This document shows positions 9,195-48,321 of a DNA stretch of 57,223 nucleotides, one piece after another. Where the stretch lies: positions 1 to 57,223 of the forward strand of contig JAHLKU010000013.1 in assembly GCA_020444505.1 (NCBI GenBank), read 5' to 3'. Numbering within the stretch: the stretch's first letter is position 1; the number at the start of each line of letters is the position of its first letter. Source of the stretch: Actinomycetota bacterium (GTDB lineage Bacteria > Actinomycetota > Acidimicrobiia > Spongiisociales > UBA11373). The position numbers were made by a program, and so were the translations under genes. The notes below the pieces were generated by a model. The model was given only the letters and a program-made list of their open reading frames with translations, did not search any database and was not told the DNA's origin.

Positions 9195-9272
9195 GGGGGC
9201 GTGGTGAAGTCTGGAGTTCACGCCGGCCTGTCAAGCCGGAGGTCGCGGGTTCAAATCCCGTCGTCCCCGCCA
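9195..9272 (+). tRNA. tRNA-Asp (anticodon GTC)
   Basis: The acceptor GGGGGCG pairs with CGTCCCC (one G-T pair), and the D stem is GTGA/TCAC. The anticodon loop CTGTCAA reads GTC, and the T arm is GCGGG-TTCAAAT-CCCGT. The discriminator is G9269 and CCA is encoded (9270-9272). A GTC anticodon tRNA is a potential substrate for queuosine at position 34, relevant to the queuosine mannosyltransferase-like gene at 44145. Confidence 0.95.
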
Positions 9273-43497: not shown

Positions 43498-44148
43498 TCA
43501 GGCGTGCCGCACCACGCACCACACCTGCCCTCGCTCCGTGAGCGGCGCCCGGTCGAGCCGCTGGGCCTCGAGGCCTCTCGCTGCGCACTCCTCCTCGACC
43601 CACCGCCAGGCGTGACCCACCATCCCCGGCTCGTCGGACTCGTGGCTGCGCCCCACCCAGGCCTCGCCGAGGTAGTCCTCCTGCGCCTTCGACTCCCCGG
43701 CGGGCAGGAACGAGGCGAGGAACACGCCATCGGATGCCGAATGGGCCGCGAAGCCGTCGAGCATGGCACCGATCTGCTGCTTCGAGGCATGCGTCCACAC
43801 CGAACGCGCCACGACGTGCGTGAACCGGATACCGAACACCGAGAAGTCGAACCGGTCGTTGCCGTCGAAGCGGGGGCGCTTGCACTCGACCACCTCCGGG
43901 TCGAGGAACTCGCGCAGTCCCCGCTCCAGCATGGCTCGATTGGGTTCGATCCCGCAGTAGTGGCCGGGGTCCAGCAGCGGGATCACCCACCGTCCGCCCC
44001 GCAGCGCCCCGCACCCGACGTCCAGGACGAAGCTGTCGAAGCACAGGCCGTGCTCCAGCAGCACGATCAACTGCTCGCGCCCTGCCGCCTCGAACAGGCG
44101 AGGCGGCCCTCCCAGGAAACCATCGTTCATATCGTGGGACACGGTCAC
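43498..44148 (-). CDS. Class I SAM-dependent methyltransferase
   Basis: This encodes 216 residues. FVLDVGCGALRGGRWVIPLL is the SAM-binding motif I region, followed by GIEPN at the acidic loop of motif II. FTHVVARSVWTHASKQQ fits post-motif regions seen in small-substrate or glycan methyltransferases. Its GTG 44148 overlaps the stop of the glycosyltransferase gene by 4 bases, with AGGGTGAG upstream, so the two are translationally coupled. The substrate is unknown; it may act on the same molecule as the glycosyltransferase. Confidence 0.82.
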   Translation of the reverse strand: MTVSHDMNDGFLGGPPRLFEAAGREQLIVLLEHGLCFDSFVLDVGCGALRGGRWVIPLLDPGHYCGIEPNRAMLERGLREFLDPEVVECKRPRFDGNDRFDFSVFGIRFTHVVARSVWTHASKQQIGAMLDGFAAHSASDGVFLASFLPAGESKAQEDYLGEAWVGRSHESDEPGMVGHAWRWVEEECAARGLEAQRLDRAPLTERGQVWCVVRHA

Positions 44149-45272
44149 CTCACCCTACGGCGCCGGCCTCTCCGGTGGGACGCCCGCACCTCCTCCAGCC
44201 AGGCGTCGGTCCGGGGGCCGGCGACCGCCCAATCGAACCGGTCGACTGCGGCCCGGACCTCCGCGGCGCGGGTGCGAGCGATGCCCGGGTCGGCGGCGAT
44301 CGCAGCGAGACGCTCCACGAGTTGCCGCTTCGTCCGGTACAGGCACACTCCTTCCATGCCCGGCGGCACCCGCTCCGGGTAGACGAGGCGGTCCGGCAGC
44401 ACCGGCAGCGCCCCGGCGTGCATCGCCTCGACCACCGACACGCCGAAGAACTCCTGGCGGGCGGTCACCACCACCGCGTCGGCGCCGTGGAGTGCCTCGA
44501 CGTAGGCGCCCTCATCCAGGTGGCCCTCGTGGACGACCCGGGTGCCGAGTCGCTCGATCGCCTCGCGGTGGGCGTCGGGTTGGGCGACGAACGACTCGCC
44601 GGCCAGCACCACCCGCAGGTCGAGGCCCTGCTCCGCCACGGCGGTCAGGGCCGCCAGGGCGTCACCGATCGCCTTGTCGGGGTCCCACCGGTGGTTCCAC
44701 AGGAACGTGGCGGGCCCGTGCCGCCCGCGCAGCGGACCGATGCGGGCCAGGTCCACTCCCACCGGCACCACCGTGCTCTTGGCCGCCACCCGTTCGACCA
44801 GGTGCCCGTGGTGACGGTCGGGGGCCGCCCCCAGGAACCCCGGGAGCGCTCCCAGGACCGCGTCCCGGTGGAACGCGCTGTTGAAGGCCACCCCGTCGGC
44901 GGCCAGGAGCGACGTCCACGTGACCATGCCCAGCGCTCGCTCCGCCCGGGTGCGCCCGGTCTCGGGGTAGGTCACCTGGTTCTCGTGCAGGTACAGCGCC
45001 ACCGGCACACCGCCGAGGGCTTCCCGGGCCAGGCCCAGGAACCCGGCCAGGTCGAGCATCGACGTGGCCAGCACCAGGTCGGGAGGGCCGTCCTCTCCGA
45101 CGGCGGCGGCGGCCTGCTCGGCCAGCGTCACGTGCCCGCCCCCCAGCCGCCACTTCCAGAACTGCCCTTCGTGGGTGAGCAGCCGGACGTCGTGGGCGCT
45201 GTGCCCGGCCAGGCCCTCCGCCCACTGGCGGTGGCTGCCGGTGAAGTAGGGCTCGACGAGCAGCACTCGCAT
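44145..45272 (-). CDS. Glycosyltransferase of the tRNA-queuosine mannosyltransferase (DUF3524) type
   Basis: This encodes 375 residues. The N-terminal region MRVLLVEPYFTGSHRQWAEG and a later FWKWRLGGG match the DUF3524 domain of human QTMAN/GTDC1, where GSHKQL and a K-W-R element are conserved. The C-terminal GT-B half has FLWNHRWDPDKAIGDAL, a nucleotide-sugar-binding region (VVLAGESF) and the E-x7-E motif EFFGVSVVEAM near residue 272. The eukaryotic enzyme transfers mannose from GDP-mannose to queuosine-34 of tRNA-Asp; bacterial homologues of the domain exist with uncharacterised substrates. ATG 45272 was chosen over 45290 because family members start at MRVLLVEP. It is coupled to a methyltransferase gene. 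Confidence 0.8.
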   Translation of the reverse strand: MRVLLVEPYFTGSHRQWAEGLAGHSAHDVRLLTHEGQFWKWRLGGGHVTLAEQAAAAVGEDGPPDLVLATSMLDLAGFLGLAREALGGVPVALYLHENQVTYPETGRTRAERALGMVTWTSLLAADGVAFNSAFHRDAVLGALPGFLGAAPDRHHGHLVERVAAKSTVVPVGVDLARIGPLRGRHGPATFLWNHRWDPDKAIGDALAALTAVAEQGLDLRVVLAGESFVAQPDAHREAIERLGTRVVHEGHLDEGAYVEALHGADAVVVTARQEFFGVSVVEAMHAGALPVLPDRLVYPERVPPGMEGVCLYRTKRQLVERLAAIAADPGIARTRAAEVRAAVDRFDWAVAGPRTDAWLEEVRASHRRGRRRRVR

Positions 45273-45390
45273 GCTCCAGGGATACCACATGGGTGACCTT
45301 CGCCCCTGGCGGCCATGCCCCGGGCGGGAGGACGATGGGCCTCACCAGGCCGCCGGAGAGCGGCCGTTGCGGCGTGCCCGAGGAGGACCC

Positions 45391-46119
45391 ATGCGACGAT
45401 GGACGGCCTTGATCCTGGCAACGGCCCTCGCGACCGCCGCCGCCGGCTGCGGCGACGACCAGCAGGTGCTCGGGGACGGCACCACGACCGCGGCGCCCAC
45501 GACCGGCGCGCCCACCACGGCGGGCCCGACCACGACCGGCGCCCCGGCCACGACGGCCGCCCCCACCACGGAGGCGACGACCACGGCGCCGTCCACGACC
45601 GTGACGACGGCCCCGCCGACCACCACGACCACGGTGGCGCCGACCCTGCCGCCCGGCCCGTACTACGGCCCGCCACCGCCCTACTTCCCCGCCCCGCTGC
45701 CCGGCAGCGACCAGGCGCACGGCTCGGGGTGCGTCGTCCCGGGAGGCTCCACGACCCTGCCCGACGGCATCTGGTTCGGTTTCGCCGAGGGCACCACCCC
45801 CGGCATGCTCACCTTCGACCTCGCCTGCTTCTGGACCGGCGCCGTCGCCGTCGACAAGGCCACCGAGGACGGCGAGGAGGCCTTCGACTTCTACATCCGC
45901 AACAACAACCCGACCACCCGCCAGGTGCCGGTGTCGGCATCCGCCCGGGTCTGGTACGTCGACATGACCTCGCCCGATGTCAGCGTGCCGGACGAGATCC
46001 CCCTCAGCGCCTGGCCGCACCCCGACTCGTTCATGACCTGCCCCGATCAGTGGTGCAGCGTGTGGATCTACGTCAACGACGGCGAGGTCACGGCGCTGGT
46101 GGAGCAGTACCTGCCGTAG
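45391..46119 (+). CDS. Secreted lipoprotein paralogue A (GSGC-WFGF family)
   Basis: This encodes 242 residues. ATG 45391 follows AGGAGGA. The signal peptide ends in ATAAAGCGDD, then a Thr/Ala/Pro linker runs to about residue 100, including PYYGPPPPYF. The mature domain begins at GSGCVVPGG and contains DGIWFGF, LTFDLACFWTG, ATEDGEEAFDFYIRNNNP and VWIYVNDGEVTALVEQYLP at the very C terminus. Three or four Cys are conserved in the family. It is the first of three adjacent paralogues. No known domain was recognised. Confidence 0.8.
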   Translation: MRRWTALILATALATAAAGCGDDQQVLGDGTTTAAPTTGAPTTAGPTTTGAPATTAAPTTEATTTAPSTTVTTAPPTTTTTVAPTLPPGPYYGPPPPYFPAPLPGSDQAHGSGCVVPGGSTTLPDGIWFGFAEGTTPGMLTFDLACFWTGAVAVDKATEDGEEAFDFYIRNNNPTTRQVPVSASARVWYVDMTSPDVSVPDEIPLSAWPHPDSFMTCPDQWCSVWIYVNDGEVTALVEQYLP

Positions 46120-46159
46120 CGGCACGCCGAGAGGACGCCGCACCCGAAGGAGGGACGAC

Positions 46160-46843
46160 GTGAGAAGGATCGCACTCCTGCTGACGGCGCTGGCGCTCGT
46201 GGCCGCCGCCTGCGGCGACGACGTGCTCGGCGACGGCAGCACGACGGCGGCGCCCACCACGGTGCCGCCCACCACCGAGGCCCCGCCGACCACCGGCACC
46301 GCCCCGACCACGACCACGCTGCCGCCCACGACGGTGACGACGGCGCCCCCGGAGACCACCACCACCGAGGCCGCGCCGCCGCTCGCCTACCCGATCGGCG
46401 ATGGCCAGCACCTGCCCGATCCGCTGCCGGGCAGCAACCAGGCGCACGGGTCCGGCTGCGTGGTCCCCGGCGGATCGATGACGCTGACCGACGGCATCTG
46501 GTTCGGCTTCGCCACCACCCACGCCGGCGGCGAGATCGGCTTCGACCTCGCCTGCTTCTTCACCGGACAGGCCGCCATCGACGCCGCCACCGAGGACGGC
46601 GAGGAGGCCTTCGACTTCTACATCCGCAACAACAACCCGACCATCCGCCAGGTGCCGCTGCCCCCCGACGCCCGGGTGCTCTCCATCGACGATCCCGGCG
46701 GGCCGGTGCCGCCCTTCGAGGTGACCGGCGCCGAGTGGCCGGTGGGCAACGGGTTCGTCGCCTGCCCGGGGCCGTACTGCGCGGTGTGGCTGTATGTGAA
46801 CGACGGCGTCGTCACCGGCCTGGTGGAGCAGTACCTGCCGTAG
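46160..46843 (+). CDS. Secreted lipoprotein paralogue B (GSGC-WFGF family)
   Basis: This encodes 227 residues. GTG 46160 follows GAAGGAGG. The signal peptide MRRIALLLTALALVAAAC ends in Cys18. The mature domain shares all landmarks with paralogue A and is identical to paralogue C at the DNA level across 216 bases (46445-46660), which encode CVVPGGSMTLTDGIWFGF through TIRQVPL. It ends with GLVEQYLP. Function unknown. Confidence 0.8.
   Translation: MRRIALLLTALALVAAACGDDVLGDGSTTAAPTTVPPTTEAPPTTGTAPTTTTLPPTTVTTAPPETTTTEAAPPLAYPIGDGQHLPDPLPGSNQAHGSGCVVPGGSMTLTDGIWFGFATTHAGGEIGFDLACFFTGQAAIDAATEDGEEAFDFYIRNNNPTIRQVPLPPDARVLSIDDPGGPVPPFEVTGAEWPVGNGFVACPGPYCAVWLYVNDGVVTGLVEQYLP
46445..46660 (+). repeat. 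216-bp identical block, copy 1
   Basis: Bases 46445-46660 are identical to 47315-47530, with a constant offset of 870. They code for 72 residues with no synonymous difference, while both flanks differ markedly. Confidence 0.9.
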
Positions 46844-47005
46844 CCGGGATGCGCAGGAGGCAGGGGCGGGACCCGGCGGCGCCGCGTGGTGATTGACGTC
46901 GCGTACCCCGCGATCCGTGCTCTGATGGAGTGCGCAGCCGGCGGGCCATTCCGCCGGCGGGGGTGCTGTGTTCACGGCCGGCCGACGACGACGAGGAGAG
47001 ACCAC

Positions 47006-47707
47006 GTGAGACGAACCGCACTCCTGCTGACGGCCCTGGCGCTCGTGGCCGCCGCCTGCGGCGACGACGTCCTCGACGGCGGCGCCACCACGGCCGCCCC
47101 GGCGACCACCCAGGCGCCGCCCACCACCCACGGCGGCTCGACCCTGCCGCCCACCACGGAGGCGCCGCCTCCTCCCTCGAGCACGCTGCCGCCAACCACC
47201 GCCACCACGGCCGCCCCGGCGACCACCACCACGGCGGCCCCGCCCCCGTCCCACACCTACGAGATCGACGACAGCGACTTCTTCCCCATCCCCGAGCCCG
47301 GCAGCAACGGGGCCCACGGGTCCGGCTGCGTGGTCCCCGGCGGATCGATGACGCTGACCGACGGCATCTGGTTCGGCTTCGCCACCACCCACGCCGGCGG
47401 CGAGATCGGCTTCGACCTCGCCTGCTTCTTCACCGGACAGGCCGCCATCGACGCCGCCACCGAGGACGGCGAGGAGGCCTTCGACTTCTACATCCGCAAC
47501 AACAACCCGACCATCCGCCAGGTGCCGCTGGCCTCCGATGCCCGGGTGTTCTACGTGGACGGCGCCACCATCAACATGCTGGAGACGACGCCGGCGGCGT
47601 GGCCGACCGCCTCCTCGTACCTGCCGTGCACCGGCCAGTACTGCTCGGTGTGGCTGTACGTGAACGACGGGGTAGCCACCGGCATGGTGGAGCAGTACCT
47701 GCCGTAG
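47006..47707 (+). CDS. Secreted lipoprotein paralogue C (GSGC-WFGF family)
   Basis: This encodes 233 residues. GTG 47006 follows GAGGAGAG. The signal peptide MRRTALLLTALALVAAAC is almost the same as in B. The linker includes many Thr/Pro, then the domain GSGCVVPGGSMT to GMVEQYLP. The segment 47315-47530 is identical to paralogue B; the C-terminal third differs. The longer upstream frame from 46886 is not supported by a ribosome site. It is convergent with recR, whose stop codon is 18 bases away. Function unknown. Confidence 0.8.
   Translation: MRRTALLLTALALVAAACGDDVLDGGATTAAPATTQAPPTTHGGSTLPPTTEAPPPPSSTLPPTTATTAAPATTTTAAPPPSHTYEIDDSDFFPIPEPGSNGAHGSGCVVPGGSMTLTDGIWFGFATTHAGGEIGFDLACFFTGQAAIDAATEDGEEAFDFYIRNNNPTIRQVPLASDARVFYVDGATINMLETTPAAWPTASSYLPCTGQYCSVWLYVNDGVATGMVEQYLP
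47315..47530 (+). repeat. 216-bp identical block, copy 2
   Basis: Second copy of the identical segment shared with 46445-46660; the match ends where B has CCCCCC and C has GCCTCC. Confidence 0.9.
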
Positions 47708-47724: not shown

Positions 47725-48321
47725 CTACATCTCCCGGCGGCCGACGAGTGCCCGGCCCAGGGTGAGCTCGTCGGCGTAGTCGAGGTCGCCCCCCACCGGC
47801 AGGCCGCTGGCGAGACGGGTCACCCGCACCCCGAGCGGCTTCAGCAGCCGCGCCAGGTACAGCGCGGTGGTGTCACCCTCCACGGTGGGGTTGGTGGCGA
47901 CGATCACCTCGGACACCTGCTCGTCCTCGATGCGGGCCACCAGTTCGCGCATGCGCAACTGGTCGGGCCCGATGCCCTCGATGGGTGAGATCGAGCCGCC
48001 GAGGACGTGGTAGCGGCCCCGGAACTCCTGGGTCTTCTCCACCACCACGATGTCCTGCGGGCGTTCGACCACGCACATCGTGGACGGGTCCCGGCGCAGG
48101 TCGCGGCAGATGGAGCACTCCTCGGAGTCGGTGACGTTGAAGCAGCGGTCGCACAGCCGCACCTCGGACCGCATCGACAGGATCGACTCTGCGAGGCGCC
48201 TGGCGTCCTCCTCCTCGACGTGGAGGATGTGGAAGGCGAGCCGCTGGGCGCTCTTGCGCCCGATGCCGGGGAGCCGGGCCAACTCGTCGATGAGCCGCTG
48301 GATCGGCGCCTCGAACATCAT
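47725..48321 (-). CDS. recR: Recombination protein RecR
   Basis: This encodes 198 residues. It has the helix-hairpin-helix [20 protein letters not shown], a four-Cys zinc finger ([18 protein letters not shown]) and a Toprim domain ([15 protein letters not shown]), with a C-terminal [19 protein letters not shown]. RecR works with RecO/RecF in loading RecA on gapped DNA. ATG 48321 overlaps the stop of ybaB (ATGA). dnaX-ybaB-recR is a widely conserved operon. Confidence 0.97.

Follow-up and report, generated by a model that had tools for sequence, protein, structure and literature searches.

A QTMAN-family gene in an Acidimicrobiia genome probably encodes a bacterial queuosine glycosyltransferase

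A gene resembling the animal queuosine mannosyltransferase QTMAN (GTDC1) raises the question of what such an enzyme might do in a bacterium. The gene lies in a stretch of 57,223 nucleotides, called the window here, that covers positions 1 to 57,223 of contig JAHLKU010000013.1 from an Actinomycetota bacterium of the class Acidimicrobiia. QTMAN and QTGAL were reportedly identified in a Cell 2023 paper. A first-pass annotation of the window had assigned a bacterial QTMAN homologue to positions 44145–45272, which is exact to the base, and had omitted the strand, which is minus.

The gene encodes a protein of 375 aa with two recognizable halves. The N-terminal QTMAN_N domain (44754–45269, minus strand) matches PF12038, formerly DUF3524, from end to end (residues 1–168 of 168) with 172 bits against a cut-off of 25 (E 9e-51), which bears out the DUF3524 assignment of the first pass. 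It contains the motifs GSHRQWA (residues 12–18) and FWKWR (residues 38–42), which hold the GSHRQW and KWR elements that had suggested the homology, together with HENQ. A Glycos_transf_1 match follows (E 1e-11), and this C-terminal GT4 donor-binding half (44271–44717, minus strand) carries the motif WNHRWDPDK and the EX7E pair E274/E282. An alignment of 28 relatives, matched along the whole protein, has 31 invariant columns, among them S13, H14, W17 and A18, the HE.Q motif, the donor motif WN[HQ]RW..DK, and both EX7E glutamates. The same alignment prefers a start at 45272 (MRVLLVEPY...) to an alternative in-frame ATG upstream at 45290. The gene is the single PF12038 match in a profile search of the 97.6% complete assembly. 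The features that characterize the family are thus found together: QTMAN_N over cut-off, an intact EX7E in the GT4 half, and a host with TGT, QueA, and QueG.

An AlphaFold2 model built from the family alignment (pLDDT 93.8) has the GT-B fold typical of retaining GT4 enzymes. Its structural neighbours include several GT4 enzymes at VIA-align Z scores of about 30–33, with SPS, BshA, MshA, GlgM, and PimA among the best. Because these similar scores are shared with enzymes that differ in acceptor, the fold informs on chemistry and not on substrate. A search of the PDB with the family profile ranks GDP-mannose-dependent PimA enzymes first (8e-12), a mild hint from sequence that mannose may be the sugar. 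Sequence and profile searches of the PDB found no close sequence match to a solved QTMAN structure.

The genome that carries the window is equipped to make queuosine (Q). TGT and QueA adjoin on contig 21 and QueG is encoded on contig 101, so that all three genes for which the first pass had proposed a search are there and the organism should be able to complete Q. A genome search gave no match to QueH, as expected with QueG present. For GluQRS, the sole match in this genome is a full-length GluRS-like gene under cut-off.

The association of QTMAN with Q synthesis extends well beyond this genome. Across 198 genomes of the class, QTMAN is present in 42 and TGT in 133, and 41 of the 42 QTMAN genomes have both (Fisher p 1.8e-7); the TGT counts cover genomes of the class only, and a further 11 QTMAN genomes lie beyond it. 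With the window's own order set aside, in which nearly all members carry TGT, the enzyme was found in nine of nine QTMAN genomes (p 0.003). At the level of the phylum (346 Actinomycetota genomes), all 21 genomes with QTMAN have QueA at E < 1e-100, against strong QueA in about 186 of 346 genomes overall (about 54%; counted by hand from the table, at a threshold of E 1e-80 that we chose), which gives a Fisher p of 2.5e-6. Matches weaker than 1e-80 resemble paralogues, and several TGT-negative class genomes have only such matches. Counted by family, 12 of 12 families with QTMAN have QueA, which occurs in roughly 45 of 71 families (p about 0.002, from approximate counts). The queuosine link proposed for the DUF3524 family in the first pass is therefore upheld as a significant genomic association. 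QueA-like genes of a second class, with E values of about 1e-45 to 1e-76, were also seen in G020, G036, G064, G084, and many genomes of the phylum, including class genomes that lack a TGT match.

The last step of Q synthesis follows the same pattern. Epoxyqueuosine reductase, as QueG or the unrelated QueH, is present in about 51 of 53 QTMAN genomes. QueG is near full-length in about 41 of the 53, has an internal stop in G200, and is a fragment at a contig end in G030; QueH, which catalyses the same step, is found in nine others, and G160 and G481 show no clear match to either. That two different reductases occur among QTMAN genomes fits a dependence on their product, Q. The single exception for TGT and QueA is G046, which has QTMAN and QueG and lacks TGT and QueA; its congeners G042 and G136 have all of these genes. 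This is likely an assembly gap, since tgt and queA are neighbours and one gap could remove both. QTMAN is patchy among Q-making genomes, as illustrated by G196, a 99% complete member of the window's genus that has TGT and QueA and no QTMAN, and the association in part tracks phylogeny. As QTMAN is almost confined to Q-making bacteria, these bacteria probably carry a sugar-decorated Q. We conclude that the window gene likely encodes a bacterial queuosine glycosyltransferase of the QTMAN family, probably one that makes mannosyl-Q.

A conventional GT4 enzyme that builds glycolipids or surface polysaccharides, and shares QTMAN_N by descent only, would also account for the generic fold and for best structural matches as varied as SPS, BshA, MshA, GlgM, and PimA, and would suit the NCBIfam matches to EPS glycosyltransferases, which are weak and far under cut-off. 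The genomic setting of the gene makes this unlikely. In the window's order QTMAN commonly comes right after recR (dnaX-ybaB-recR-QTMAN), and the recR family is present at 24 of 43 loci, often a few bases away. Other Acidimicrobiia have QTMAN among alr, tsaE, tsaB, rimI, tsaD, and groEL, and in Marinimicrobia it is close to smpB and tyrS (Pfam checks cover recR, smpB, tyrS, and the GNAT gene; dnaX, ybaB, alr, the tsa genes, and groEL were named by reading sequences). Another GT4-type gene lies within 5 kb at three of 123 QTMAN loci, which come from two sets with some contigs taken twice, in a screen for GT4 that GT2 enzymes would escape. These housekeeping neighbours, the scarcity of other GT4-type genes nearby, and a position outside polysaccharide clusters argue against polysaccharide synthesis, which would moreover leave unexplained the presence of QueA in all 21 QTMAN genomes of the phylum sample. 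At the loci examined neither tgt nor queA is adjacent to QTMAN, so the link to Q rests on co-occurrence and not on gene order. In the window, recR (47725–48321, minus strand), which in many relatives is directly upstream of QTMAN at a distance of about 6–16 bp, has been split off by inserts. Three tandem paralogous lipoprotein-like genes on the plus strand (45271–47707) break the pair; each has a CGDD lipobox followed by a Thr/Pro-rich linker and a common C-terminal half with AHGSGCVVPGG..., and none matches a Pfam family over cut-off. One further locus, L074 (G026:C24:4812-6293), is an extra QTMAN copy with an in-frame TGA in a genome that has an intact copy elsewhere.

The first pass had also described QTMAN as translationally coupled to a methyltransferase and had suggested a modified sugar or a modified Q. 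Downstream of QTMAN on the same strand is a class I SAM methyltransferase gene (43498–44148, minus strand; PF08242, 36.5 bits against a cut-off of 30), whose start lies inside the QTMAN stop in a 4-bp GTGA overlap (44145–44148, minus strand) or may instead lie six codons further along, at an ATG. The overlap stands and may well couple translation of the two genes in this genome, which would favour a pair that makes a methylated glycosyl-Q, with the methyl group on the sugar or on Q. The partnership fails on comparison with relatives, where the first pass had looked to conserved DUF3524-methyltransferase pairs for support: a homologue of the methyltransferase is found at none of the 122 other QTMAN loci, and a DNA query spanning both genes matched relatives in its QTMAN part only (bar short spurious stretches). 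We therefore rejected the methyltransferase as a conserved partner of QTMAN. Among 119 class genomes it has distant relatives only, and the best four (about 35% over 130 aa, in G003, G060, G056, and G020) are all in genomes without TGT and have sulfotransferase-like, GT2, or polysaccharide-export genes for neighbours, which leaves methyl-glycosyl-Q unsupported and makes it an improbable product. A structure model from the single sequence is poor (pLDDT 43). The congener G196, in which QTMAN is absent, also has no match to the methyltransferase at the DNA level. The methyltransferase gene was probably acquired locally, for a different function. A still smaller chance attaches to a glycosyltransferase that acts on a free 7-deazaguanine compound, such as queuine or queuosine, in place of tRNA. 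Small-molecule glycosyltransferases are among the structural neighbours (those for tetrahydrobiopterin, and BshA), and co-occurrence with Q synthesis cannot separate free from tRNA-bound Q; against this, salvage or transport genes were not noticed nearby, and animal members of the family act on Q in tRNA (PMC12518689, PMC12313893).

On the preferred reading, that of a glycosyltransferase acting on Q in tRNA, the modelled enzyme would be a cytosolic, retaining GT-B glycosyltransferase. Q would first be made by TGT, QueA, and QueG (or QueH), and QTMAN is then predicted to attach a single sugar to the queuosine cyclopentenediol through one of its hydroxyls, presumably the allylic one. The donor would most likely be GDP-mannose and the sugar mannose, and the modified base would occupy the wobble position (34) in at least one GUN tRNA. 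Which tRNA species are candidates was considered in relation to GluQRS, which in bacteria modifies Q of tRNA-Asp. Had QTMAN and GluQRS excluded each other, tRNA-Asp would have been indicated as the target. No such exclusion was seen: the two coexist in six of the nine QTMAN genomes outside the window's order (G002, G083, G087, G108, G158, and G179) with a positive association (p 0.02), where a GluQRS-like gene was called as a second, mostly 300–400 aa match at E < 1e-79 and some calls fall slightly below the NCBIfam cut-off. The target may therefore be tRNA-Asp or another GUN tRNA, and in the genomes with both genes either Q carries both modifications or QTMAN and GluQRS use different tRNAs. 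No GluQRS over cut-off was found in the window's order, where QTMAN is common. The first pass had pointed to a tRNA-Asp(GTC) gene in the window; the gene is present (9195–9272, plus strand), encodes a possible substrate species, and carries no weight as support.

In a survey that took a single genome for each species, hundreds of QTMAN relatives were recovered, and the best 80 of these come from Acidimicrobiia, Chloroflexi/Anaerolineae, Saprospiraceae, Balneolaceae, Marinimicrobia, KSB1, and others. Searches of viral contig, phage, and plasmid collections found no virus- or plasmid-borne QTMAN. It is reasonably probable that glycosyl-Q made by QTMAN relatives, as a counterpart of the animal modification, is present in the tRNA of many bacteria, among them Acidimicrobiia, Chloroflexi, Bacteroidota, and Marinimicrobia, with a sugar that is perhaps methylated in this strain. 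Reviews list manQ and galQ as eukaryotic or vertebrate only and gluQ as the bacterial form (PMC7694415, PMC12710937), and manQ is described as an alpha-mannose on the allylic hydroxyl of Q (PMC8654956, PMC12518689). We found no report of mannosyl-Q or DUF3524 in bacteria in a literature search that leaves subscription journals and preprints largely outside its coverage; the Pfam QTMAN_N model itself already spans bacterial proteins like the one in the window. A glycosyl-Q product in bacteria would thus be new as far as the literature covered goes, in keeping with the novelty claimed in the first pass for an actinobacterium, and the methyl-glycosyl form that it also raised is unlikely. If bacterial QTMANs act on Q, glycosyl-Q would be widespread in bacteria, its function could be probed through simple gene deletion in culturable QTMAN bearers such as Phaeodactylibacter xiamenensis and Flavilitoribacter nigricans, and where the animal enzyme came from would become a testable question.

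Among the closest known systems is animal QTMAN (GTDC1), the alpha-mannosyltransferase of Q in tRNA-Asp, which resembles the window protein in its full-length QTMAN_N domain, GT4 half, and motifs, and in a host with enzymes for Q in tRNA. Against what we take to be the human QTMAN sequence, the window protein aligns at 28% in the N-terminal part and 34% in the C-terminal part, a comparison that serves as a lead only. The two differ in that the host of the window protein is a bacterium that makes Q itself. PimA and other GT4 GDP-mannose-dependent mannosyltransferases, the best profile match in the PDB, have the fold and EX7E motif in common with QTMAN. The acceptor of PimA is a membrane lipid, unlike the one proposed for QTMAN, and to our knowledge the PimA family lacks the QTMAN_N signature. 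GluQRS (YadB), the glutamyl-queuosine synthetase, is a bacterial decorator of the Q34 cyclopentenediol in tRNA-Asp, the same moiety that we propose for QTMAN; its fold is unrelated, and what it adds is glutamate.
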